Shown here one piece after another: positions 14,886 through 61,854 of a DNA stretch of 64,000 bases (within the stretch, counting starts at the first letter, position 1; the number at the start of each line of letters is the position of its first letter). The stretch is from positions 353,073 to 417,072 of the forward strand of contig JAIWWG010000021.1 of the NCBI GenBank assembly GCA_025435555.1. The letters run 5' to 3'. The notes beneath the pieces are model-generated. The model worked only from the letters and a program-made list of their open reading frames with translations, had not been told where the DNA came from and did no database searches. The translations under genes were made by a program, and so were the position numbers. Origin of the DNA: Chytriomyces cf. hyalinus JEL632 (taxonomy: Eukaryota > Chytridiomycota > Chytridiomycetes > Chytridiales > Chytriomycetaceae).

Positions 14886-17681
14886 TCAAAGATTCGACGC
14901 CTGCGTATCATCAAACAGCAAATCATCAACCAAATAACCGCCTTTCCTCAGCTCCTCCAACTCTGCGTCATTTGGCCCTTCGAAATCTTCAAATTCGTCC
15001 AAACTACTGCTGCTGCTTTCATCCCTTTCCCCTACTTCTCGATTCAACCGCTGAAACTCGTAGCTCTCGCCGCTACCGCCAACTCCAGTTGCTCCCATCT
15101 CGTTGTCGTTCATTCTTTGTTGCCGCATCAGGAACCATTCAAAGATTTCAGTGCGTTTGGAGTATAGGTACCATCCTGCACCGCCTAAACCGCATATGAC
15201 GATCAGGGCAATGAACCAAGCCACGCCACTGCGTCCTCCACTGTTACTGGGTTGAGCAGTATCACCCTTTCCGTCTTCTCCTATTGCGCCTGAAGGTGTG
15301 TTGGAAGTTTTGCTCGCATCAGCAGGCTGTGCTGATGCATCAGTAGGGACGGGTACGGTCGGGGGTTCAGCTCCACCACCAACGACATCTGGCTTTTTGT
15401 GAACGGTGCTTGTTTGCTGTGAGCCCCAGAACGTGATGGCTGCGTTCTCAAAAGTCCCCGTAAGGTCAGGAGTTTCTGCATCGCGAATGACAAGTTGCCA
15501 TCTTCCAACGGGGTTTTCGTCCCTGTAGAAAAAACAGGCAAGTTTATCTACCATGAAATTGAATCAAAGAAAGAGCCACTCACCAATGCGCGACAGTCAT
15601 AAACGTCCAATTTGAGTAGCCAGTATCGGATCGATCTCCGTGTCGCTTCACTCCCAAGAAACTCATAATTCCGTTTGGAGAAATCAAATCTACAGCAACG
15701 TCACCGCGTTTCTTGTGCTGAATGTTGATTGTCACGGTAATATGCTCCAGCAGCCCAAAATTCGCTTCTGCCAGAGCGTCGCGCGTAATGTCATAGATGG
15801 CGCGAACATCTTTCCCAGACTCTTGCGGAATCTCGGCAGCGCCTTTCTCATTGGGTGCGACAAATGCAGTTTTGTAGAAAGCGTGCGCGGGGACAGTTTT
15901 CCAAGTCTTTGCGAGTTCGAGGATTGCATACGCGTCCAGTTTGCCATACCCATATTCGTGGCTGTACAGGCGACCAGCGTGGGTTTTGAACCATGACGGG
16001 TCTTTTGTGTTGACTGGCACTGCAGAGCGAACTGTAATGTGCTGATAGTCTCTCCAGGATAGATCGGGCCTGTTTACTTTGTTATTTTTTTCCGCCATGG
16101 TGATGCAGAGGTGGATTAGCATTTCACCTGATGGAGTTGACTAATGCGTAAATTCCAGACGCAAGTGGCGCTGATGCTGACGTTCCGCCGTGAGATTTTG
16201 TGCACAGATCGCCTTCGTGGCCTAATTGCCAATCCGTTGTTGCCTGCAGCGAGAAGTTTTAAAGGACAGTTCAACAACACTAAGACAAACTCACAATCGC
16301 ATCATCATGTCTTTGATTCGCAGACGAGTACATGACAATCATATTTGCCGAGCATGCTTCCGAATAAACAGGGTGTAAATTGTTGCGATCCACGGAGGAA
16401 ACAGTGATCGTATAGATGCTGTTTGTGTATCCGTCAAAGTTGCAATTGTCCCCGGCGGCACCCCCATTTCCACTGGCGAATACAAAAATTGATCCAAGCC
16501 CGCCTCGACCATTCTTGATGCCATTCACAACCGCATCACTCACAATCCGCGGAGGCGCTTCCATAGTCGCGCCATTATCCGTTGGACCCCAACTACATGA
16601 ATAAATATGATTGTCCTGCATTTTATAGTTGATGGATGCAGCTTCATCCGCCTCAGTGAGCGATCCACCCAAGATTCTCACAGCCGAGACTTTTGCTTTG
16701 TACGCAACCCCTACGCCGCATACATTATTTCGAACGGCTGCAACTTCTCCTGCACATCGCGTGCCATGGCGATCTTCGTATGTTTTTGGTATAGGATCTG
16801 GCGTGTGGGCGTTGTAATCGTATGAACCTTCGGCATACTGCGAGTTTTGTATGCATTGTCAATTAAACAAGACACTTAACACGAAAAGGATGCTTACATA
16901 GTTATCTTTAAGATCATTGCTGTTGTAGTTCATTCCATCATCCACAAAGCACACCACAGACCCATTTCCAAATATTCCTGCAACAAATATGCGCTGTTAA
17001 CAAAAGGCCAAAGAAAACATAGTTGTCATGCAAACCTTGGCTCCATGCACCCGTCACATTATGATCATTTCCCACCTGGGAAGGACTGTCGTTGATGAGA
17101 TGCCACTGATTTCCAAACTCTGGATCGGTAATCTCAAACAGCTTCGCAGCCGCTTCTATACGACCCTCATTACCACGTCCCCATAGATGCAAATCATCTT
17201 CCCAAACTTCAGGAACACTCCTTTTCACAAGTCGATTCTTGGGAACCTGCATTTCCGCCCACGCCACATCTGGATGAGTCCGAATGCACTCCTGCACGCT
17301 GTTCATGAGTTCGACCGAGTCTCGGCGCACGGCAACTTGAAAGTAATTGGGCAGCTCGCCCACTGCGCCGATAAACACAACCGTCGGCGCAGATAGATCC
17401 GCGCACGCTGATTCGCTGCGCCGTGAGAGTGAGTCTTGGCCGAGCCATAGTGCCACGTTCGCTGCTCGTTGCGCGAAGGGTGAAGCTTCGTGTGCAAGAT
17501 CGCGGCGAGCTCTGGCGGATGAGTCGGCGGTGGAAGTGTCGCCGTGGATTTGGTATGCAAAGTATGCAAAGTTCTCATGGTCATTTGGCGGTGCGTTTGC
17601 CCAGGATGCAGATGCGGTGGCCATGCTCAGACTGAGCCAGGCGAGTGCATGCAGTGCTTGCATTTTGACGGTTGGTTTCAC
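14886..17681 (-). CDS. KEX2: kexin-type subtilisin protease, copy 1 (long acidic tail)
   Basis: A Golgi-type proprotein convertase that cleaves after dibasic sites. The product is 835 residues in six exons (introns 15523-15583, 16070-16127, 16244-16294, 16838-16897, 16978-17035). A signal peptide is followed by a prodomain with a self-processing KR site (RLVKR). The catalytic residues are all visible: Asp in FVDDGMN, His in DRHGTRCAGE, the oxyanion Asn in ASGNGG and Ser in HGGTSASAPLASG. A P/Homo B domain ends with WTFMTVAHWDENPVGRWQL. One transmembrane helix (about residues 720-742) and a roughly 90-residue acidic cytosolic tail follow. Exons of 80, 543 and 116 nt match those of the second kexin exactly. 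It is convergent with transmembrane-SAM copy 1. Confidence 0.95.
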
Positions 17682-17971
17682 GGAATATTTTCCGTCTTTA
17701 TTTTTATCTGGTTATCCACGCGCTTGATCGACAACAGGGACGAGCTTTTGAAAACGCAATCCCTTGTTCAGTATTTTGCGTGCATGTGGAGAATATATAT
17801 CGTGATTTGAAGTTTTTAAAAATCTAAAATGCGGTTGCAGTCGAGGAGGACGCGGGCTTTCCTTATGATCGAGTGTGTAATCAAGCGGTTGACACCGAAA
17901 GAAACAGAGGATCTTCACGAGAAAATCGTTAAAAATAACAGCGCAAACATTGACAAAACCGTTTGCAAAAA
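17682..17971. promoter_or_regulatory. divergent promoter region of kexin 1 and a secreted protein
   Basis: 290 bases separate the start codons of kexin copy 1 (minus) and a secreted Cys-rich protein (plus). No other gene fits, so both promoters should be here. I see AT-rich stretches but no element I can name with confidence. Confidence 0.4.
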
Positions 17972-28189: not shown

Positions 28190-28606
28190 ACCGTTGTTGT
28201 TGGCTGTGGTGGTCATTTTTTGAACCTGCATGTTGCTATTTTGCGAGTTTTTTTTCGGATATCCAGATGAAGGAGATAATAAATGTAATCCCGTTAAAGT
28301 TGGAATCGCCGATTTGAAGGCATATCATTGCCCGGGAGGACGCGTTAGTTGGTACCCTCTGTAGGGGAGACAAACACAGTGGTATCAAGGCTACTGCGCG
28401 TGTAATGGATTCGCTTCGAACAGTGGTAAAACAGAAGTCTATTTTGTTCGATGGTACTCCGACCATGCCGGCGTGACAAGCAAAATAGGATGTTTGATGT
28501 TTCCCAACTCAGCCAGATTTTAACTTAAATTTCATTCAGACGCAACCACTCCTCCTGAGTGAGTGGACCGACATCCGCCTCGCTTAAGATACCCTCTAAC
28601 GCCAAA
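28190..28606. other. intergenic, no gene recognised
   Basis: About 417 bases between the helicase stop and the start of kexin 2. It is GC-moderate and has no clear open frame or RNA gene. It should include the helicase 3' UTR and the kexin 2 promoter. Confidence 0.5.
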
Positions 28607-31124
28607 ATGCAGATGTGGCTAAGTGGTCTCCTCCACCTCTCGATCCTGACGACGGCGTTCGCAAGTCTCCCCTTCAACCCACACACAGACCCCATCCCCA
28701 GTCACTCACACGACCGCACCCTGAAACGAATCGCATTCAAACTCAAAAATGGGGACACCGAATCCATACGAGCACTCCAAGTCGCCAATGATATGCAAAT
28801 GCAGTTCGTCGGTGCAGTGGGCGAACTGCGCGATTACTTCCAAGTGTCAGTCTCTGTCGAAGCAATGCGGTTACGAAGGAGGGACTACTTGGAGGCGGTT
28901 GAAGGGGGCCAAGCGCGGGACCAGGATCTACATGCGTTTGTGGCAATGTTGGTTGAGCAGCATCCTGAGGTTAGTTGGGCTGAAGCACAGGTGCCAAGAA
29001 TACCGTATGTGCGGAGGAATGTGATTCCGGCAAGGGATCGTATTGATAGTGCGGAGGCAAAGTTTGGAATCCAGGACCCGGATTTCAAGTATCAGTGGCA
29101 TATACTGAATGATACCCCGGGTCAGGTTGGGCATGATCACAATGTGACAGGTGCCTGGGAGCTAGGTAAGTTTTACAAATCGGACCTTGTGTGAGTGTTT
29201 CATACTCATCATCTAACTCATTGCATGAAATTTGCAGGAGTCTTTGGCAACGGTTCGGTTATCTGTATAGTAGATGATGGAGTGAATTACAATGCGACTG
29301 ATTTGAAGGATGCGTATGTGAGTGCTTGAAGCTTGTTTCGAATTTTATTTTTCGAAACCTTAAACGTAAACTCGCAGTACGAACAAGGCTCGTACGATTT
29401 CAACGACCACACGCCAGACGCGGGACCTAAACTCGCTGCAGATCGGCACGGAACGCGATGCGCCGGCGAAATCGTTGCCGCGAAAAACAAGGTTTGCGGC
29501 GTCGGAATCGCGCACCAAGCCAAAGTGTCAGCCGTAAGAATCCTCGGCGGTTCTTTGACAGAAGCCGATGAAGCAGCGTCCATCAATTACAAGTTTCATG
29601 AGAACCACATTTACTCGTGTTCTTGGGGTCCCACGGACGACGGGAGGACCATGCAAGGACCCTCCACCATCGTTGCTGATGCATTTTTGAATGGAGTCAC
29701 GAATGGGCGCAATGGCTTGGGTTCGATTTTTGTGTTTGCGAGTGGAAACGGAGGCGGTATGGGCGACAATTGCAATTTCGATGGTTTCACGAACAGCATT
29801 TACACGATCACTGTCTCGTCGATTGACCGGAACGATAAGCATCCACAATATTCTGAGTCTTGTTCGGCAAACTTGGTGGTCATGTATTCTTCGGCAACAC
29901 AGCGAAATGACGACGCTATCGTAAGGGGCTATTGTTTTTGAGTTGGACAAGATCTAAAACTTGTCCCCCCTCCCCCCACCACAGGCTACAACAGACTGGG
30001 AGCTTGGAAATAATGGCGACATGTGCACAAAATCGCATGGTGGTACTTCAGCAGCTGCACCTCTTGCAAGCGCAATCTATGCCTTGGTGCATTCAATCAG
30101 GTTCGTGTTATTTGCAGGCCAAAGAATCATGATGCTGAAGTTAGAAATAGACCCGATTTATCATGGCGCGATTTTCAGCATTTGTCTGTGCAAAGCGCCG
30201 CTCCAGTCAACACTCAAGACAAGACATGGTTCAAAACGCACGCAGGTCGAATGTACAGCCACGATTACGGATATGGCAAGCTAGATGCCTACGCCATCTT
30301 GCAACTTGCGAAAACTTGGAAACCTGTATCGAAGCAAGTCTCGATAGCGTCTCCCTTCACAGCGCCTGTGAGTACACCTGGGTCCATGATTCCAAAAGAA
30401 AAAGGAGACGTGCGTGTTTTGATTCCCGTAACCAATGGCATACTTCGAGGGGATAATTTTGGGCGACTGGAGCATGTCACTGTGACTGTTAATATCGAGC
30501 ACCCAAGGCGCGGGAGTGTTGTTGTGGATCTTGTCTCCCCGAATGGAATTGTTTCGCATTTAGCGGTTGCACGCTCGTTTGATGATGCCACCACGGGATT
30601 CTCAAATTGGACGTTTATGACTGTGGCGCATTGGTGAGAGATGCAATGCTTGTTTTGTCGATAAGGGTGACCGCTTGTTAATAACTCGGTGCGACAATAA
30701 CAGGGACGAAAACCCGATCGGCGTTTGGCAAGTAGTTGTGTCTGAATACAAAGTGTCAAACGCGCAACAAGGATCGTTTGGCACGTTCTCAACTTTGCCC
30801 CGCGACACTCCCGCATTCGGAACGTTCAACAACGCGTCCATCACATTCTGGGGCTCCTTCAGCAACGAAACTCAAACGTCCCCTGCATCCCACTTGACTC
30901 CGGACCTCCCAGCCACAACTTCAGCATCTGCGCGAGTTCATGTGAAACAAGTGCAGAACGGATACAAGGATGTGAGTGGTTTGCTGTTTTGGGTGTGTGG
31001 GTGTTGTGCAGTTGTGCTCGCGGGACTTGTGTATGTTTTGGTGAATGGTGGTGGCGGTGCCAGAGGGTGGAGGAGTGGCGGGAAAATAGATGGGTTTGAA
31101 GCTGTTTCAGACACTGTTGAATAA
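28607..31124 (+). CDS. kexin-type subtilisin protease, copy 2 (short tail)
   Basis: A second proprotein convertase, 733 residues in six exons (introns 29166-29237, 29318-29377, 29921-29984, 30101-30150, 30634-30703). A signal peptide directly follows the Met at 28607 (WLSGLLHLSILTTAFA), which decided the start over the Met at 28559. The prodomain ends at a dibasic site (YVRR). Catalytic Asp (IVDDGVN), His (DRHGTRCAGE), oxyanion Asn (ASGNGG) and Ser (HGGTSAAAPLAS) are intact. The P domain ends at WTFMTVAHWDENPIGVWQV. One transmembrane helix near the end is followed by only about 25 tail residues, unlike copy 1, so trafficking may differ. Exons 2-4 have the same lengths as copy 1. It is convergent with transmembrane-SAM copy 2. 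Confidence 0.95.
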
Positions 31125-33417: not shown

Positions 33418-34701
33418 TCAGGCGACGTGTGTCAGGTCAGCTACTGGCTTACTCTTGGTGTCCACGACAAGCTTGAAAACATCCGGCCGTGCGTAATGTC
33501 CGACGGGGTCAAAGTCCATCTTGGCCTCATGAATTCTGTCCTTGTCAACCACAGCGCACAAAATTCCTCTCTCCCCGAACAACGGACCTGCAAGCACATT
33601 TCCAAGCGGCCCCACAATAACACTCCCCCCAAGAGTCACTACATCCGTCGTACTCATCCCATGCAAACCCGGATACTCTGCCGGATAATCCTCCCTCTCC
33701 GCATACTGATTACACCCAACCACAAAACAACGACCCTCAGACGCGATATGACGCATCGTCGAAGTCCACGACTCTCGCGAATCCGCCGTCGGCGCCACAT
33801 ACACTTCAACTCCCATCGAGTATAACGCCATGCGTTGCATGGGCATGTAGTTTTCCCAGCAGATGCATCCACCGACTCGACCGACAATTGTGTCGACTAC
33901 GCGGATATCTGCGCCATCGCCTTGACCCCATATAAGGCGTTCTGAAGCGGTTGGCATGAGTTTGCGGTGTACGCTGAGCAACTCGCCCGTGTTGGAGATG
34001 GTCAGCGATGTGCAGTACAGTGTTCCAAATCCACCCTTGTTGCTATATTTTCAATGGACCAAGTGAAACGAGTAACACGCGTTAAGCGAAAGAGTGTGTC
34101 ATACAATATTCTTGTAATCACCTTGACCCGTAGGTTCCCCGTTCCGGCCCAGAAACAGGCCCGTCACACCGTTCAACAACACCGACAACTAGAACCACGT
34201 TGCTGTTTCTTGCGGCTGCTCGGATCCGTGACATGATGGGACCTTCCACGTCTGAAACTGGCACAGCAGATTCAATGTACTTGCGGAACCATGCGCGGCC
34301 CTGTTATAATATATTCCTTTTGCGGTTGAGCATTCCACAAATTGCAATCCACTCCCCCTTCCCTCCCTTCAAGAATAAACGACTTTTTTCACCTCATCCG
34401 TGCGGCTTCCAATGCGAGCTCCGAAGTCATGGTCACGTGGATACGCCGACAGAAAGGCTTCCGGGAACACGACAACAACGGGCAAGTCGAGGTTAGCAGC
34501 ATTTGGCTGTGATCTCGCTGTTTTTTTCATGGTTGGATCAAGTGCTTGTTAGTTTGGGGTGTCTTCTTTGCGTGAGTGTAGAGAAAGGGTTCAACCTGCT
34601 TCTGCTGCCGTGACTGTGAGCGCCTCAAGTTTGGACAGACTTGCTTCGAGGTCGAATGCGACTGGCGCGTCTTGCACTGCTGCGATGCAGAAGCGTGGCA
34701 T
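33418..34701 (-). CDS. nitrilase family C-N hydrolase (nitrilase/cyanide hydratase type)
   Basis: Hydrolyses nitriles to carboxylic acids and ammonia, or related C-N bonds. 344 residues in four exons (introns 34043-34121, 34301-34392, 34518-34595), a normal length for branch 1 nitrilases. The triad is visible: Glu in VVFPEAFLSAYPR, Lys in VHRKLMPTASERLIWG and Cys in GGCICWENYMP. The segments APTADSRESW and EGRCFVVGCNQY match plant and fungal nitrilases rather than amidases. Whether it acts on cyanide or organic nitriles cannot be read from sequence. No targeting signal seen; likely cytosolic. It lies 65 bases downstream of, and in the same orientation as, the hexosaminidase. Confidence 0.93.
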
Positions 34702-39217: not shown

Positions 39218-39599
39218 TCGTTGGAACTTTTTGATTCGAAATAATTCGAAATAATTGTGCGCATTTGTGTGCTTAATAATAAATAATACCGCTTGTTTTA
39301 TCGGGCACCTTCCGTTCAGAGTATCGGGTATCGGTGTTGATGGATCCAGTGTTGATGTGGGATGGATGAATGTGTTGACAGTTGCTGCGTTGACGGATGC
39401 TGTCTTGGTAGTCCCTGTGTCGATAGTAGCTGTGTGGATGACTGCCTGCCAGTCTCTCTTCATGCCAGTCTCTCGCTTTCCTGCTTGCTTGGTTACTTGC
39501 GGCCCCCTAGTTACATCTCTTTTTTATTCCCTGAAAACGCCAATCTCTGAAAATCCCTGCACCCGCGTCTTCAAAAAAAAAAAGCTTCATCTTGTTCGG
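39218..39599. promoter_or_regulatory. divergent promoter region of the F-box gene and the receptor-PDE gene
   Basis: 382 bases between the two start codons. It contains a run of short TGTTGAT/GTTGACGG-like repeats at about 39330-39450 (for example GGTGTTGATGGATCCAGTGTTGATGTGGG, quoted in two parts as GGTGTTGATGG and AGTGTTGATGTGGG). No named element recognised. Confidence 0.4.
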
Positions 39600-42500
39600 A
39601 TGAAGATCTTGCCTCGCGCTTTCGATGTCCTCGATGACATTATGTCAGATACTCTGCTGGCTTATAACTGCAACAATGAAGGAAAGAGACTCTCTCAGGG
39701 TCGGCGAGGAGTTCAGTTCACCTGTCTCGCGCAACGAATAGTCTTGTCAATACTGCTGTGTTCTGTGATACTGTCTGTCGAGGCAGCTCCATCGAATACC
39801 AGTGCACTGATAAACATGCGAAAACGCGCGGAGGAGAACACAATCCCGACACGCGTAAAGACACTTCAGAATACCTCCATACCAACCATCTCTCTGTACT
39901 TTCCAATTCCTGAATTGAGCGATCGTTGGGCGGCTCTCGTTTCGACGCTGTACATGGCGGCAGATGATTTGTTTGAAACGGATCCGAATCTGTGGGTGGA
40001 CATTCGTGTTTCACGGATACTGAACAGGACTGATGCGTTTGAAGAAGCTGAGGATGCTGCTCGGAGCGACGGTTTAGCAGGATTTCTAGGTATGAGCTTG
40101 CTGGCGTATGTGGCAGTATTGCGTGACTTCGTTATCTCAAACACTTTTGATCAGGTGATGCCATGTACGCCGAGGTAGCGCAAGTCGCTGCGCGATTTCA
40201 GATTCCAATGTGCGAGGGAATGGGTGCGTTGCGATGCTTCTGATCAGGCGATGGGGAGTCATTAACAACATCATGGCAGATACTCGGTCGGAGCTGTCTG
40301 ATCGTGGCAAGTATCCCACACTGTTTCGAACGATCCCGTCTGCGGAGAGCGAGCTGGCTGCCATGTATGCGTTCGTTCGGTACCTGGGATTCAGCAAAGT
40401 TGCGGTCGTTCCGTCCGATAATGACACTGGTATTGCTTTTGTGCGGGGCCCGTTGAAGCTCATTTCGAGATAAAACTTTTTTTTTCCATTTCACAGATAC
40501 GAGTTCAGTTTTCATTATGGCATCCAAATACAACCTCAGCGTGCAGGCGATGTACTTGGAGCCAGAGACGGCGACGGGATGTGCGCGCATCGAGCAGAGC
40601 CTGCGAGCAAACACCGCCGCCGATGCGCTGGTTGTTGTCCTCATTCTGTCGAAACACTTTGCCGCAACCTGTCTCGAAAGCCTTGCTGCGAATACAAACT
40701 TGGCAAAGAAGGCGACGTGGGTTCTGGATCAAGCAGCAATGTCTGTGGTTTCTTCCGTCAAGGCTTCGGGCATGTTTGCCGTGTCGCGGATAGAAGGATC
40801 GGGGGAGGCGTATGCGAACGTGTTATCGAAATGGCGGGATCCTGCGTATCAGTCGAGGTTTTTTTGTTGGCCTTTTCATCTGTATATATTGGGGGTGTAG
40901 AAACTGATTGTATTTCTCAGGTATCCCCACATTTCAGCTTTTGACGTCCCGCCTGCCGGCTTCATGTGAGAATGGCTGTCTCGTAGAAAAGTGAACCCTT
41001 CTAACTATTTACCGCTTTAAAAAGGTTTGTTCGATCATGTCTCGAAGTCATGATCAACGGCTTCAACCAGGTAAAGCTGTCTGCGGCCTTTATTGCCAAG
41101 AATGCTGACGCGCGTGTTTCACAGAAACTGTCAGAGTCTGGTCTGCAGAGCGTCGTATCTCGACAGATGAATGTGCCAGCTGACTTTACATTTCCAAGTC
41201 TGGTAACTTCGACCGGCAGAATCGACTTCCGCCCTGGCACAAACGATCGAGCGGGGTAAAACTTTCCTTTCCCCAATTTATTTCCCAGGGTTCGAAACCC
41301 AAAAACTGAACTTATTTTTTTTTCTTCAAGCTCATTCAATATCCATTATCACAACGGAACCAGCTTTGTCCTTGTCGGTGTTTTGAACGAGTCGATGCAG
41401 ATTGATCTGCGACAGAGTCTTGACACGTTTGGATGGGTGAACGCGTCGGCTCCGAGTGTTGTTGGAGGCGAGGCGGGGCGAAGTAACGCGTCGCTGGCGA
41501 CAGGGCTTTCTGTTGGTGGCGGAATATTAATTATCGGACTGGCTGTTTGCATATACTATCGATGCCGTGCTGCGAGGTCTGAGCTAAACAAGTCGACTGA
41601 GGAGGAGGAGGAAGTTGGGCTTCAGAGCAATGGGAATAATATTGGGATTAGCGTATGTTGCTTCTTCTTCAGATGTTATTTATTCTGATTATTTTCTGCA
41701 GGTCAGCGGCACAGGACAACAAGCGTTAAACATTCTGGCTCGCATGAAAGAGCAAGACCAAAAAAGGAACAGACCATGTCTCACAGATTTCCAAATCCAA
41801 ATCTTGACGGACGCCCTCACTTCCGGAGGAAACTCTGCGTACGATCCAACTTTTGAACTGTCACCAACGAACGGCCCACCAGTCGACGCGGAACTGCAAG
41901 AATTTCTTATGAACACCATGCTGGCAACGGGCAAACGGAGGACCGCAGTCGATGGACATTTAATACCTTTATCCACTGCAACTCTTAATGTTGCCCCGTC
42001 TACTCCGATACCCTTACAAGATGATGAACCTCCACCTGTGCCAGGGTTGAGTAGAGAAAAATCCTTGTTCAAACAACTGAAAAGCAGTGCACATAGTCTC
42101 GTATCAAACCGATTACACGACCCCGAAGCAGGTACCCGCGAAGGTTCAGAAGCTGCATCCCCGGAGGGCCCGCATTTCAAAAGCGACCGAACCGAAGAAT
42201 TAAAACACGCCTCTGCAGCCAAATTTGCAATGAAACGAGAATTTTCAAACGAGAGTTATCTATTGGCTGGAACTGTTACACGTTCAAAGACTACAAAAGC
42301 TGGAGCGCTCAAGTCTTTAAATTCTCAGCAACCGAGTTTGGCGCGGAGGATTTCAACTTTCGCGACACATGCGTTTAGCCCTGCTGCTGGTATGACGCCG
42401 AGTCCTGTGAAAGATTCAATGGAACCAAAAGAGTTTGCCATGTCGCCGCTTTCTTCTTCAGTGTTTATTGCGGTGCCGGATTTGAATCGACCGTATTTTG

Positions 42501-44095
42501 AGAGCAAGTTTATGCAGAATGCGACGGAAGATTTGCAAACGATTTCAATGTCGCCGATTAATGATTATTTAAATTCTGCGTGTTTGACTTGGGGGATAGG
42601 TAATTTTATGTGTATGATCAACGGTGAACTTGGGGAGTTTTTGACGTTATTCGTTGTTCTTCGTTTTAGACATGTTTAAATTGTGCGATTTGTCTGAAGG
42701 TCATCCGCTCTATTTCAGTGGAATGTGGATTGTGGAGAAAACAGACTTTCTGGACCGATACAGAATAGGAACTGGGAAATTCAAAAGCTGGCTGTTGGTA
42801 AAAAAACAACAACACCCTTTTTTCTCTCGCACGAATGCTAAAAAAACTTTACCAAATTATCCAAAAAAAGATGATGGAACGCGAATACAGTCCATTGCCA
42901 TACCATAACCGACTACATGCGGCAGATGTACTTCAAGGATTCAATTACATGGCGTTCCATGGACAATGGGCGTCCGCGTTCACGCCGATTGAAAAGTTTG
43001 CAGGTCTTTTAGCTGCGATTGGGCATGACATTGATCACACGGTGAGTAGATGTGATTCGCTTTTAAATGTGCGGTGTGTTTTCGATTTTTTGCGACTCAT
43101 ACATTTGTTTCAGGGGTTTTCCAACCAATTTCTCGTTAAATCGCGGCATCCCATGGCGATCATGTATTCTGATTCTTCCGTCAATGAGTTTCATCATTCA
43201 GCGCACATGTTTACTACAACGCTCGAGTCTGAGAGTAACATATTTTCTGGATTTACGGTTGAAGAGTTCGAGGAAATGCGGCGTATTGTGATTAAACTGA
43301 TTGTTGCAACGGATATGGGAAAGGTGAGAGAAAAGGGATCTTTTTTTTTGTCCAATGCAGTGAGAGTATGGGCGTGCTAACAGTTGTTTTTTTTTCTAGC
43401 ATTTTGAAATCATGTCGAAGTTCCAAACAAAAATGGCTGCGACCGGTTTTGCGAAATTGGATACGCAGGAAAACCGGCTTTTGGTTTTGGAGATTGCGTT
43501 GAAATGTTCGGATTTGAGCAACCCTTCGAAACCGCAAGATATTGCTGTGCAGTGGTCTTTTTGTATTATGGAAGGTGAATATCAATCAATGCGCTAGCAA
43601 TTACATCGGAAGAGTGCTGACGTAGTTTTTTTTTATTTGAAGAATTCTATCGCCAAGGTGATGAGGAAAGAAAACATGGACTGCCTGTGAGCAATTTTAT
43701 GGATCGACAGAACCCGAACGTTGCCAAATGCCAAGTGAGTTGTGCTCATTTGTTTTTATAACCTCAAATAACTCATATGAAATTGTCGTTAGATTGGATT
43801 CATTGATCTTCTCGTGGCACCACTATTCAACACATGGATCTCCTTCAACCGCGATGACGACACAAACAATGCAACCATGCGATCAAATATATCCCACAAC
43901 AAAAAACTGTGGCAACACGTTTCTGCGTCTTCAAAGCAAGAATCCGGGTCTGCACGGTCAAACGCAGTTTCTTTGATTGCCAAAAGTCTTTCGTCGATTG
44001 ATCCTGGGAGGGGAGGCGGGCCGCCTGAAGTTCCTCAGGTGCCTGATATTTTTGTGATACAGGGGTCGGAGAGGAGCATACCCGTTTTAGAATAA
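39600..44095 (+). CDS. receptor-phosphodiesterase: class I periplasmic-binding-fold ectodomain, one TM helix, cyclic-nucleotide PDE
   Basis: Predicted 1,214 residues in 14 exons with frame closure. A hydrophobic signal (about residues 43-62) precedes an ANF-receptor/LIVBP-like ligand-binding fold. It includes ELSDRGKYPTLFRTIPSAES, GFSKVAVVPSDNDT and, before the membrane, SFNIHYHNGTSFVLVGVLNE. One helix (GLSVGGGILIIGLAVCIYY, about 506-528) leads to a 330-residue linker and a class I PDE domain (about 855-1165). Its metal-site motifs are YHNRLHAADV, GHDIDHTG and LKCSDLSNP, and the purine-selecting Gln is in KCQIGFIDLLVAP. The PDE should hydrolyse cAMP and/or cGMP in the cytosol. The proposed intron at 42798-42870 is GT-AG but has a poor acceptor and drops about a dozen helix residues; a homopolymer frameshift there is the alternative. 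Introns begin at 40090, 40224, 40430, 40858, 40966, 41256, 41653, 42600, 42798, 43042, 43324, 43575 and 43735. Confidence 0.85.
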
Positions 44096-55219: not shown

Positions 55220-56852
55220 TCATACGTTAACTCCTTCCCGAAACGAACTTTTTTGGTAAAGGGCAACAAAACGAACCTCGCAGTAAAGAATCACTTCTGC
55301 CAAGTGAACAGGCTCAATGTATCCACTGGGATCGAAATCGGGGATATGGTTGACCGTGTATGAGACTGCAGCCATACCTGTATAGTGCATACCATTGACG
55401 GCAACTGCGATAATCACTGCAGCCGCGTATTTGACAACCTCGTAAGGATAGTATGGCAGGATGCGGAAAATAATAAACATTCCTGCGGTAGCCGCAACGA
55501 CAGCAATCACGACCGAAAGAAAAACAACGACAGGGTTGTAGATTTGCTCTGCTTGCATTCTCATGGATAGCATTCCCATATAATGCATACCCAAAACCGC
55601 GAGAGCGATAAAGAAGCCGGAGATGATGATTCTCCAAGGTTTTTCAAACAGAATCAGAATGTCTATGGTAAGCTCTAGTTCTGCTGTTTCATGATGTGCT
55701 GATTCTAGCTGAGTCATGGATTCTTTATCCTTGCGAGACACGGAAATGCGGTCTCTGTTTGGAAGGGCGGGCGCAACGTCGTAACGAAGCGACATATCTG
55801 AATTTAGCACGCCGATTGGATAAAGTGGCATGTGCGGTGGTGGAATTTTGGGCTTTGGAAGTGAATCGAACCCTCTGGCAACCCAAGAAGCAGGCGATTT
55901 GCCAGTGTGTGCATGACCACCTAGATCGCTTGAACTTCCCGCCTTTTCATGTGATGCTAGCCGGGACATGCTGAGAAACGACGACTTTATGCTAGGAATC
56001 TTCAAGTTGGTGGTGCTTCCGGGAGTTTGGGGCGGCGCCGGTACTTTGGATTCGTCTGGAAGAAGGGCGGCGCTTTCAACGATAGCCTCCATTGGGTTAT
56101 CAAAATCGGCAGTTGGTTTTGATTCGTGAATCACTGGAACATGTGCTCCAAGCGGAGTGATGGGTCCACGCGTAGTTCCACTAGTCCTTGGCAAAGCAGC
56201 AGCGGACGATACATGTCCCACAGTGATTGTCTTGATGGTGGGCCCACCCTTTTTCAGCCTTGCTTCCGCCTTCTTTTTGACGGCCATCGTTTTGGCAACT
56301 GCGCGAGCCATGATGCGTTCAGCCAGTTTGGTTCTGTCGTGGACGATCGAGTTCCAGTGTTCATCTTGGCTTGCAAAGTAGAAAGCCCATAGAATCGTGA
56401 CGCTGCAGAGGATAGCTGACAGTACCGTGTACCCGTACTCGAAGTAGATTGGAACGCGTGCTCCTGTGTCGTGGATATGAAGCGTGATGGCAGTCATTCC
56501 AACAAAGTGCATAAAAAAGATGGTCCGGATGGACAGAGAAAGCGACGACAGCAGCAGCAGAGTTGCAGAGTAGAACTTGGACAGTGGAGGATCAACGCTG
56601 GTTTTTTTTTTGTGTGGGGAACGGGATAAAAGTCAGTGCGTGACCGCGCATGAATTCTGTGGTTTTGTTTGAATGATGACACAATAAGTTTTTTTTATAC
56701 CGTGCACGGGCCTCGTTGAGCAGGATCGTGTACATGGCGCCGGCATACGATATTGCGATGGAGACAATGATGGTTACAGCATTCCATTGCGTGTTGAGAG
56801 GGTCCTCGTGGAACTGCGCGAGTGTTGAGTTTCCGGAGTCTGGGGCAATCAT
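55220..56852 (-). CDS. MHYT-domain membrane sensor protein
   Basis: 509 residues in two exons (intron 56598-56700). MHYT domains are multi-pass modules, best known in bacteria, proposed to bind copper and sense O2, CO or NO. The motif occurs three times: MHFVGM (about residue 80), MHYMGM (about 386) and MHYTGM (about 453), each at the start of a membrane helix. Between the first and second lies a roughly 250-residue Ser/Pro/Lys-rich hydrophilic insertion. Bacterial MHYT proteins usually carry GGDEF, EAL or kinase domains; here no output domain is visible, so the long insertion may be the signalling part. The start at 56852 gives an extracellular NSTLAQF segment before the first helix. Confidence 0.87.
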
Positions 56853-57343
56853 TTGGGTCCCCGAAGTTGGGGATTTTCAAACTTTTCTTGCGGCTCAATG
56901 AATGGTTTCCTACTATTTTATACATGTACACACTTTCACACTAACTAAAAGATCGGAAGACTTGCTGGCTTTTAGTCCGACTGCGCTTGAAAGGAAAAAT
57001 GCTGGTGCAAAAGGCGTCTTGTATATGTATCTGATCTACGTACCTGCGCCACTGATTTGGTGGACTGGATATCAAGCTACGCGTGTGTTGGTTGTTGCAG
57101 CACATGTATCTTGTTCGGTACAAAGACTTGGCGGCTACTTCAACACATCCTTTAAAAAGCAATGCGCATTTTATTGTCGTGTAGTTTTTATTCTCAGAAC
57201 AAGTTAAGAATTTTTCTGCGCATCCGGATTGTCAGTCTTTCATCGCCAACAGACGCGCTTTTCAAACGATACAAACGCGCCCAACTCAACCAGAGTCAAG
57301 AGCAAAAGTAAACCTCGATATTACCTCTCTATCACGGCAGACG
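56853..57343. other. divergent intergenic region between the MHYT and K+ channel genes
   Basis: 491 bases between the two start codons, holding both promoters. No RNA gene or named motif recognised. Confidence 0.45.
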
Positions 57344-59994
57344 ATGGACATCGGAACAGCGTCAGCATCTCCAAAAGTGGACAAGGGCGCTCTACTGCCC
57401 ACAGAGCAGTGCGAAACATGGACGGAAATCATTCAAAGCTTCTATCTCATCCCAGAGGGCCCGTTCATGGCAAACTGGGACCGAGTCATGGTGTTTGCCA
57501 CGCTGGTCAACTGTATCATTGTGTCGTTCATGGCCGCTTTCCAACAAATTACTGTAGCCACGTTCATTTTAACGTACTTTATCGACTGCTTATTCATCGG
57601 CGACGCGTTTGTCAAGTTTCATGTCGCGTATCTTCAAGGAGGGTTCTGGGTCGTCTTCCCGCGCGACATGGCCTGCAACTATATGGCATCCAGAGAATTC
57701 AAGTACGACATCATCTCACTGCTTCCTTTGGATATCATTGCGGTCATTTGGGGCGTTGGCACTGAAGACTCGCTGCACCATTTGAGCGTGATCCGCCTCG
57801 TGAAAATGATTCGCGGAATCCGCATCTTGTCCTACTTTTACAAACAAGAAAAAAAACTGCACGCGACCATGTTGCTTCAAATTTGCAAATTTGTGAGCTT
57901 CTTAATCATGTTGATACACAACATTTCGTGCATCTGGTTCTCGTTGGCTTGTCCGCGTGGGAACCCCGAGAGTTGCAGGTCTACTTCGTGGGTAACGCTG
58001 GATGATTTGACGCCTGATGAGTCTTATCATTTTACTTCGACTTTGTATATTTATTCCACGTATTGGTCAGGTGAGGAACGCGTTCGCTTTTTTATATTTT
58101 TTTTAGATGATGGCTAACAAAAAAACTTGCAAACCAGTCGCTACGATGGCGACAGTCGGTTATGGAGATATACGACCCGAGAATGATGCCGAAAGAATAT
58201 TTGCCATCTTTGTCATGACCTGCGGAAACTTCTTTTTCGGATACATTTCAGGTGAGGCAACCAGATTTGAAAGGCGATAAATTCTAACTCTTCCCTGCAT
58301 AAAAAGGAACCATTGCATCTGCGCTGTCCAACATGGACTCCAGACGTGTTTCCTACCAGCAAAAAATGGATGCCGTTCGCCAGTACATGAATGACCGTAA
58401 CATGGACGCTGACATGCAAGAGCGCGTTTTGGATTACTACGATTATGTGTGGGAGAGAAACAAGGGTATCGATGTTAGAAATCTGTTTGACGATATGCCG
58501 AGCACGTTTAAAGGAGAAGTAGCGTTGAGTCTGAACAATGCCATTATTGACAAGGTGCAATATTTTATTTTATTTTAAATTCGTTGAGTTTCCTGCTTTT
58601 GCTCATCACACAAATCCAAACAAACACAAGGCAACCATTTTTAGAAAATGTTCAAACGGGTTTCGACGCCAGATTGCGATTCATATGAAGCTGTACCTGT
58701 TCACTGCGAATGAATACGTAATTCATAAAGGCGACTTGGGAGTTGAAATGTTTTTCATTACTCAAGGGAGAATTGATGTCTATGCGAGCGAGGATCTGAG
58801 AAGGCCAACGTCGTCGCTGATTGAAGGCGCTCATTTTGGTGAGTGGTAGAACCCCCTTGCAAGGGAAGTGAAGACTTGGAATACTAAACCCAAAATGTTG
58901 CAAAATTCCAACCAGGCGAGTTCCAAATCATTCTCGCGTATAGACACGAGTACTCTGCACGAGCAGTCTGCAACACGGACATTTACGTTCTTAAAAAAGA
59001 GGATCTTGACATGGCCTTCTCCTGCTACCCCGAGGACAAGGACCTCGTCCGCCAAGCAACCGAAGACCGCTACAAACAAGCGCAAAGCGCCAAAAAATCA
59101 CGAAAAGCCAAAATGGATACGGACCTAGAAGAAGACGACAGCCTGACTAACATCCATGCTGCCGCACAAGCAGCATTGAGCTCCTCCACTGTCAACAAAG
59201 GGGGTCGGCGTCAGAGTTTGAATCCGTTGGCATTTTTCAATAAGGAAAATAGTCAGAGTAATGGGACGGGGTTGAATCAGAATAATAATAATCAAGGGTC
59301 TATACCGGATCTTGCGATGGCTGGAACTGCTGCTGCTGCTGCTGCTGCGCGACCTAGCCTGATGCACGTGTTTCAAAAACGCCGTGCAAGCGCAATGCCA
59401 GGCAGTGACGGAGAAAGCATGCCAAGAGCAACGTCTGCAGTCAACGCGAGTCAAGTCATGAGCGGCAGTTCCTTGAAAAGAGAGTCCAAAATCGATGTGA
59501 CTGAATCGAGGGTGGATGGAACTCCGAAAACATCCGTCGTGACCAAATTTGGGCAAACCTGGGCAAGCGGTACTGGAAGGAAGGGAAGCACAGATTCGCG
59601 GGGCCCTGAGACAGATGAGACGCAGAAATCGAAAGCGGATCTGACGAGGAAAAGCGCCTCGGCGTTGGTTCCGATTACGGAGACTCTAAACAGTAGTCAG
59701 ATTTCTGTGCAGTCTCGGCATAGCGTCCCTGCAGTCATTTTATCACCGGACGCGCAAGTTGCGGCTGTTCAAGAAGTTCAGGATGCGAGTCAGACCCCAC
59801 CGGTTCAGGCAAAAAGCGGCATTCTTCGACGGACCAAATCATTACGAGGTACAGAGCAGGTTGGGGTCGCTCCCCCCATGCCCTCAAGCCCGTCAAGTTC
59901 CCATCTCTCAAGGGAGCCGGGCAGTCAGGTTCAGTCCACCATCCAAAACGCAGATAATCCGACTGGATCAACACAATCAAAGCCTTCATCATAA
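57344..59994 (+). CDS. voltage-gated-like K+ channel with cyclic-nucleotide-binding domain
   Basis: 791 residues in five exons (introns 58071-58137, 58252-58306, 58555-58630, 58839-58915; frame verified). Six membrane segments include an S4-like helix (RLVKMIRGIRILSYF) with several basic residues. The K+ selectivity filter TMATVGYGD lies at about 245-253. A C-linker (LPSTFK-like DMPSTFKGEVALSLNNAI) and a CNBD follow, with EMFFITQGRIDVY and EGAHFGEFQIILAYRHEYSA, whose following Arg matches the phosphate-binding cassette. The C-terminal 290 residues are low-complexity Ser/Thr/Gln with an Ala run. The architecture matches the CNG/HCN/EAG superfamily; a related channel in Blastocladiella zoospores acts downstream of a light-driven guanylyl cyclase. 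Opening by cAMP or cGMP is inferred. Confidence 0.92.
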
Positions 59995-60374: not shown

Positions 60375-61854
60375 TCAAAGCTCATCGGCATAAGGCAGCT
60401 TTGATAAATCACCGTACGTCACAACAGAGGATTTAGAAGAAAGTAAAGCCTTGGCAGCTTGAGCAACATCCTCCTTCGACACTTTGGAAATTTCCTGGGC
60501 CAGTTCTCCAACAGTCATAAATCCATTGCCTCCTGCAAGGACTTGTCGTCCAATGTCTGCAATCAGGTCGTCACGATTTACGCTCACTTCGGCATCAACA
60601 ATTGCTGCTTTTTTCGCGCGGGATAGATCGGCATCGTTGATGGATGCGACGGAGTGAATCGCGGCGATTGAACGATGAGCGACACTTTTCACGTTTGCGG
60701 CGTTGCCCTTGATGTAAAGTCCAAAAAGCCCCGCATCCGTGTATGACGCGTTAAATGCAGTAACATCCGTCCCCGGGGCAGCAGCTTTCGCGAGAAGACC
60801 CGTGGCTCCGCTCGTGGATCCCCATTTAAGACGCTGAGTTCCATCGAGAACTGCGCGGAGAACCAAGGAAGTAGCATGTGCATGGATATTGGTGAAAGCT
60901 TCAGATTTGAAGCCAATGGCGACGTGAGATGGGCCGGACCCGCTGATACGAGTTTCTCCACCAAAGTACGCGGATGCTGGTGAGGGCGCGGCTCCAGACG
61001 TTGATGGAACGGCGACGCCATCAAATGACGAGTTGACGAGTGCTTCCAATTCATCGTGTGCAACACCGCTTCCAACGATGGCAATCTTTTCGGCGGTAAA
61101 GTGGGCAGAAGCAAATGCTTGCAAGTCTGATCTTTTCAAGTTGTTCAAGGCACGGTCTGTTGCGAAAAGCGAGTTTCCGAGACCTCGACGGAACGCAATG
61201 TGATGAAGAGTGTCCAAGACACGGGTAGTAGGGTTTGCGAGGGATGCGGCAGTTTCATCTGATACGCCTGGAAGCGCATCCAAGAATTCGTATGGTTGGA
61301 AAGATGGGTTGAAGACTTGGTTAATCAGACCGGGGACAACATCAACACTAGTGCGTGCGTTTAAAGTTCAGGAATGAATTGCAATCATCGCTTTTGAAGA
61401 CAAAAACGTACAGATCGTCTCGGAGAAAGTTGGATCCAATGATGATATTTTCGCGAGACACTGACGTATACAGCGTGTTTCCACGGAATTCGAATTCGCG
61501 ATAAGTGCGGACAATGTTATCGCCTGGTCGTGCCTGTGGTGCCAAGGGTAAGTTGGTGTTCACACGCACATGTGCAACTCAAGCAGCCGTGCTCACCCGC
61601 ACAAGCGACGCCTTCAACAGGTGCGCCACGCCTGGAGATTCTTCGTGTCTCGAGCCAGCGCCGATCACAAGAGCGAGCGAGGAGACTGGACCGCGTCCAT
61701 CCAGCGTGGCCACAGAAACGCCGTTTGAAGCCTTTCCGAGAGACTTGACCGACACTGGTGCTGTGTGTGGCTGGTCGCCTTTGCGGTTGTAGCCAACAGC
61801 AGACGCTGGAACGGCAAGACGCCTGGTTTGGTTCACGACTTGTGTGGAGAGCAT
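60375..61854 (-). CDS. QCR2: cytochrome bc1 complex core protein 2
   Basis: Core subunit of respiratory complex III in the inner mitochondrial membrane. 450 residues in three exons (introns 61348-61411 and 61534-61596). The N-terminus is Arg/Val/Ala-rich (TQVVNQTRRLAVPASAVG), fitting a mitochondrial presequence. The M16 peptidase fold is recognisable: SSLALVIGAGSRHEESPGVA, REFEFRGNTLYTSVSRENI and HIAFRRGLGNSLFATDRALN. The zinc motif HxxEH is replaced by AHLLKAS. That rules out an active processing-peptidase beta subunit, and the lack of the Gly-rich loop argues against MPP-alpha. Hence core protein 2. Confidence 0.9.

Follow-up and report, generated by a model that had tools for sequence, protein, structure and literature searches.

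We analyzed a gene for a putative receptor phosphodiesterase (receptor-PDE) in Chytriomyces cf. hyalinus JEL632, located in a 64,000-nucleotide stretch of contig JAIWWG010000021.1 (assembly GCA_025435555.1, forward-strand positions 353,073 to 417,072; hereafter the window, whose first letter is position 1). The gene occupies 39600-44095 on the forward (+) strand, as all its parts named below, and was assembled from 14 exons into a spliced frame of 1214 amino acids (aa) without internal stop, beginning with the ATG at 39600 and closing with a stop codon that ends at 44095. Exons 1-5 lie at 39600-40089, 40155-40223, 40280-40429, 40497-40857 and 40921-40965, exons 6-10 at 41025-41255, 41331-41652, 41702-42599, 42670-42797 and 42871-43041, and exons 11-14 at 43114-43323, 43400-43574, 43643-43734 and 43793-44095. 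The introns are GT-AG introns throughout (13/13, 49-76 nt), and six of them contain a CTRAY motif. A 54-nt in-frame segment of exon 6 (41071-41124, GTAAAG...CAG) was considered as a possible optional intron in the ectodomain and kept in the model; dropping it together with trimming of the ends changed the best E-value against the Protein Data Bank (PDB) only from 4.6e-7 to 3.2e-7. Codon-usage scoring flagged 39618-40109 and 41627-42580 among seven segments of the window and was discarded because exons of this gene were part of its training set.

Domain architecture

The layout of the protein, supported by domain searches, by checks of key residues and by a test of its topology, begins with a hydrophobic leader and an ectodomain of the ANF receptor or class I periplasmic-binding type; one membrane helix follows, then about 330 aa of linker, and the C-terminal part is a class I cyclic-nucleotide phosphodiesterase (PDE). 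With the whole 1214-aa protein as query only two Pfam domains scored above cut-off, PF01094 (ANF_receptor) and PF00233 (PDEase_I). A PF07204 match on the membrane helix (E=0.18) was below its own cut-off, and seven-transmembrane (7TM), cyclase and kinase domains gave no Pfam match in this protein. The first-pass annotation, written from the letters alone, had placed ectodomain, membrane helix and PDE in this gene, and all three were recovered in the 14-exon frame; the domain search of the spliced protein, which it had proposed as a check, puts PF01094 before the helix and PF00233 after it.

The ectodomain extends over 39879-41424 including introns (about aa 94-480), the flanks of its core being placed by spacing only. 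The core itself (40160-40795, aa 166-336) matches PF01094 at E=4.6e-14 with 52.7 bits (cut-off 25.4) over profile positions 61-226 of 353, in agreement with the class I periplasmic-binding/ANF features annotated earlier. Most of this match comes from exon 3, which reaches the profile at E=2.5e-9 on its own (aa 186-236). The stretches before and after the core fit the 353-position profile by length, and from this spacing we tentatively infer a complete two-lobe fold. Among the PDB matches of the outer half (the best 60 of 90 for the full version and the best 60 of 84 for the trimmed one without 41071-41124) mGluR2 (best E=4.6e-7) and mGluR3 came first, followed by taste T1R, other mGluRs, GABA-B and CaSR. 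In NCBIfam the ectodomain had no match.

Hydropathy, taken as the mean over 19 residues, identifies the leader at 39723-39779 (aa 42-60, 2.18), which may be a signal peptide or a signal anchor, and a single transmembrane helix at 41497-41559 (aa 505-525; 2.13 at aa 505-523), directly followed on its inner side by arginines (YYRCRAAR). Two lesser maxima, at aa 278 (1.72) and aa 212 (1.42), are located within the ANF core, a place suited to buried elements. Between the ectodomain and the PDE there is one hydrophobic helix, as the first reading had it, and together with the missing 7TM match this shows that the seven-helix domain of class C G protein-coupled receptors (GPCRs) is absent. Independent support for an outer ectodomain and an inner enzyme comes from the N-glycosylation sequons, counted without the leader and the helix: they are enriched in aa 61-504 (9 versus 3.3 expected, p=0.002) and not in aa 526-1214 (5 versus 4.9 expected, p=0.57; 5000 shuffles each). 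The start codon is not certain, since the 41 residues ahead of the leader are more than is usual in a signal peptide and since the reading frame is open upstream of 39600 to 39255 (open reading frame (ORF) 39255-40178).

A juxtamembrane region and a Ser/Thr/Pro-rich linker (41560-42589, about aa 526-852) lead to the PDE domain at 42590-43900 (about aa 853-1150). Its Pfam core (42901-43849, aa 909-1133) matches PF00233 at E=1.7e-78 with 264.1 bits (cut-off 24.8), and the domain aligns with PDE4D at E=2.2e-64 and 38% identity over 293 alignment columns. Among the best 60 of 151 PDB matches of the inner half, PDE4D led with 221 bits, ahead of PDE7A (187), PDE8A (178), PDE3B (176), PDE1B (173) and PDE9A (164). 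H910, H914, H950, D951, D1063 and Q1114 are the same as in PDE4D, and N1066 and F1117 are also present. By their PDE4D positions we take H910 to be the general acid, H914, H950, D951 and D1063 the metal ligands, and Q1114 with F1117 and N1066 the purine site. The two metal-binding motifs and the purine-site glutamine described at first sight are thus in place, and judged by these residues the domain should be an active enzyme. Its closeness to PDE4 suggests cyclic AMP (cAMP) without fixing the substrate. In the PDE4 subfamily UCR regulatory domains precede the catalytic domain; neither the whole protein nor exon 8 alone gave a Pfam match to them, and exon 8 alone contains no Pfam domain at all.

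Receptor half and enzyme half are linked by intron 7 (41653-41701, 49 nt). For this junction we collected GT-AG pairs of 40-120 nt starting at 41560-42000 whose removal fuses the two frames with no stop codon, and scored them with splice weights derived from the 12 remaining introns. Intron 7 ranked first among the 13 frame-compatible pairs with 10.94 bits, compared to 7.38 bits for the next, and 17 nt upstream of its 3' end stands CTGAT, a motif that is likewise found in intron 4. Both halves are therefore likely to reside on a single transcript, as far as splice signals can tell.

Comparison with known receptor proteins

Animal particulate guanylyl cyclases, the natriuretic-peptide receptors, consist of an ANF ectodomain, one helix, a kinase-homology domain and an internal cyclic-nucleotide enzyme that produces cyclic GMP (cGMP). 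The chytrid protein shares with them the ectodomain, the single helix and the cyclic-nucleotide enzyme inside, but it has a hydrolase in place of the cGMP-synthesizing enzyme and no kinase or cyclase match.

In the GPCR-PDE proteins of oomycetes (GPCR-bigrams) a receptor is joined to a PDE via seven helices (PMC6033456). They likewise combine, within a single membrane protein, a receptor module with a phosphodiesterase listed under cyclic nucleotide conversion, but the receptor is a seven-helix GPCR and not an ANF ectodomain with one helix; the words 'ANF', 'periplasmic' and 'ligand-binding' are absent from PMC6033456. A sensor that governs hydrolysis by a dimeric PDE through a linker is also known from rhodopsin phosphodiesterase (Rh-PDE) of the choanoflagellate Salpingoeca rosetta, where the membrane sensor is fused N-terminally to the PDE domain (PMC7644710). 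Here the difference is in the sensor and in the connection, as the light sensor of Rh-PDE comprises eight helices and is connected by 76 linker residues, whereas the chytrid protein has an ANF ectodomain, one helix and about 330 aa. Also, the Rh-PDE catalytic domain was superposed on PDE9 (PMC7644710), whereas PDE4 scores best among the PDB matches listed for our protein.

Zoosporic fungi possess glutamate-family (class C) GPCRs, with 14 members in Spizellomyces punctatus and 78 in Allomyces macrogynus, and most fungal members of this family carry an ANF_receptor ectodomain (PMC3251606). This ectodomain is what they have in common with the receptor-PDE, which in contrast has neither their seven-helix domain nor their G protein output and ends in an enzyme. 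They are a likely candidate source of the ectodomain. In a 2025 survey of GPCRs from animal relatives (PMC12716839) the words 'PDE' and 'phosphodiesterase' do not occur.

The first-pass annotation had called the arrangement unfamiliar. For the exact combination this agrees with our literature search, in which no protein with ANF ectodomain, one helix and PDE was described in open-licence PMC papers, subscription papers and preprints lying outside the search; the GPCR-PDE fusions of oomycetes (PMC6033456), however, had gone unmentioned. These fusions and Rh-PDE were the most similar published proteins that the search brought up. The protein is a receptor enzyme made of known modules in a combination that we did not find described.

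Proposed mechanism and alternatives

We consider it reasonably probable that the gene encodes a single-pass receptor PDE under direct ligand control. Leader and ectodomain would enter the secretory pathway, leaving a Venus-flytrap-like ectodomain outside, one helix spanning the plasma membrane and a class I PDE hydrolyzing cAMP and/or cGMP just beneath it. A small molecule from outside would close the ectodomain, probably in a dimer, and the resulting rearrangement of the two helices would alter PDE activity. We infer membrane location, dimerization, ligand control with its sign, and the substrate; the ligand-driven rearrangement of a dimer is proposed by analogy with the natriuretic-peptide receptors and Rh-PDE.

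Several results weigh against this model. The linker, with about 330 aa rich in Ser, Thr and Pro, makes tight mechanical coupling less plausible. Within the ectodomain, the pieces from exons 1-2, exon 4 and exons 5-7 gave no Pfam match when searched singly, its N- and C-terminal pieces found nothing relevant in the PDB (one irrelevant match at E=0.19), and an hhalign comparison with LivJ and LivK of E. coli returned a probability of 0.3%, compared to up to 2.1% for 20 shuffled controls. AlphaFold predictions made without alignment had low confidence both for exon 4 (119 aa, mean pLDDT 65.1, pTM 0.61) and for part of exon 1 (76 aa, pLDDT 64.8, pTM 0.40). Both low-confidence folds alternate helices and strands, and Foldseek found no match for either at E<=0.001: the top match of exon 4 was an MBP-APOBEC1 fusion (E=0.07), with NMDA receptor chains at ranks 21, 32 and 36 (E 0.5-0.8), and those of the exon 1 piece were sugar-binding proteins (E 1.9-2.9). 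These structure predictions and searches are uninformative about the ectodomain fold. At the junction, intron 7 has a weak donor (2.57 bits; only one of the 13 scores lower), and when 400 stretches were drawn at random from the window, 4.5% contained a GT-AG pair scoring equally high. Finally, scans with either domain, ectodomain or PDE, revealed no relative in prokaryote genome contigs (0/7 and 0/148 pattern matches confirmed, the 148 stemming from a scan with an alignment of the catalytic domain and PDE4D), nor did scans of viral contigs (no match, 0/3 and 0/14 confirmed). These scans covered prokaryotes and viruses and thus have no bearing on other chytrids, and unnoticed relatives may well exist in fungal sequence databases.

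The long linker gives room for a different model: by binding a ligand or the surface of a partner, the ectodomain would position the PDE, or gather it in clusters, in one region of the membrane, where the constitutively active enzyme would shape local cyclic-nucleotide pools, any catalytic regulation being exerted via linker phosphorylation. In line with such a tether, Ser, Thr and Pro make up 29% of aa 620-850, and the linker contains eight SP/TP sites and one RRIS (aa 771), which we take to be a protein kinase A-type motif by consensus. Moreover, Rh-PDE has been reported to show high dark activity and loose coupling (PMC7644710). A mere tether has, however, no need of an ectodomain of ligand-binding type, and the kinase-type motifs are only modestly supported (two [RK]Rx[ST] versus 0.32 expected, p=0.039), so that we regard it as rather unlikely, though worth keeping in mind.

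Separate genes for the two halves would be a short-tailed, enzyme-free ANF receptor and a soluble PDE. If intron 7 is retained, the receptor half continues for 11 residues to a stop at 41688, and an in-frame ATG of the PDE frame follows at 41744 in exon 8. Retention would yield a short-tailed receptor without enzyme; the natriuretic-peptide clearance receptor is an ANF receptor of this kind, with a short tail and no enzyme. The weak donor of intron 7 also fits this arrangement. Nevertheless we judge it improbable, because merely 55 nt would be left between both coding regions and because intron 7 is the top-scoring option, carries a CTRAY-type motif at -17 like intron 4 and joins the frames without a stop.

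As to the ligand, a low-identity alignment with mGluR2, read by eye, shows the Thr kept and the Ser, Tyr and Asp changed among four positions that we take to be amino-acid ligand contacts. Because only one of the four is kept, the ligand of the ectodomain is probably not glutamate-like, which is a hint and not a proof. That the fusion is real but its ectodomain has lost small-ligand binding and serves as a dimerization or protein-binding module could be read from the same contacts, yet it is very improbable, as lost amino-acid contacts in such an alignment do not equal lost binding and the ligands of ANF ectodomains are many, peptides among them.

Genomic surroundings

On the same strand, 13 kb downstream of the receptor-PDE gene, lies an ion-channel gene (57185-59991, +, pieces joined by eye), a candidate for a cyclic-nucleotide-regulated K+ channel. 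Ion_trans was matched (2.1e-12) in the ORF 57185-58114; a potassium-type pore motif, TVGYGD, follows at about 58150, and cNMP_binding was matched (2.1e-9) around 58712-59019. A cyclic-nucleotide-gated channel, BeCNG1, is known from Blastocladiella, where it functions downstream of cGMP in the phototaxis of zoospores (PMC9616733). The closeness of the two genes may be coincidental. Besides the ORFs of the receptor-PDE itself, no ANF or PDE domain was found at E<=0.01 in 30 scanned ORFs, which were drawn from the 223 window ORFs of at least 75 aa.

Head-to-head with the channel gene is a gene for an MHYT sensor protein (55223-56632, -) matching PF03707, 'bacterial signalling protein N terminal repeat', at 5.7e-23. 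Further along, an M16-family protein (60378-61367, -) resembles core 2 of the cytochrome bc1 complex, with 136 bits for entries that by their entry codes we assign to animals versus 48-87 bits for those we assign to yeasts. This pattern suits an early-branching opisthokont; the many short introns, the MHYT protein and the channel make a fungal origin plausible. Upstream of the receptor-PDE gene a nitrilase (33421-34050, -) has as its best PDB match the bifunctional NIT4, which we take to be a plant enzyme, with 210 bits, the next being other nitrilases with 108 bits. Pieces of a Dicer-like gene (5-2749, -) contain a Dicer_dimer match above cut-off (2.5e-6); matches to Dicer_platform and to a piece of ResIII stayed below theirs. 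Matches resembling the S8 pro-domain, both below cut-off, were obtained at 16941-17711 (-, 0.0031) and 28559-30634 (+, 7.2e-5); the latter is followed by a proprotein-convertase P-domain (6.9e-17), making it a candidate kexin-like protease.

Conclusion

The wider proposal, which we put forward tentatively and with somewhat less confidence than the receptor model itself, is that this ANF-type single-pass PDE acts as the reverse of the natriuretic-peptide guanylyl cyclases: a chemical cue met by the zoospore would change cAMP or cGMP and thereby close or open a cyclic-nucleotide-gated K+ channel of the type that the gene 13 kb downstream may encode. Animal cyclic-nucleotide receptor enzymes tie an outside ligand to synthesis. 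If the receptor model is true, the chytrid protein would represent a new wiring for cyclic-nucleotide signalling, with an outside ligand coupled straight to breakdown and without a G protein, and the same ectodomain could drive either sign of the signal. It would then add a chemically controlled PDE to the light-controlled ones and offer a testable molecular candidate for zoospore chemotaxis.

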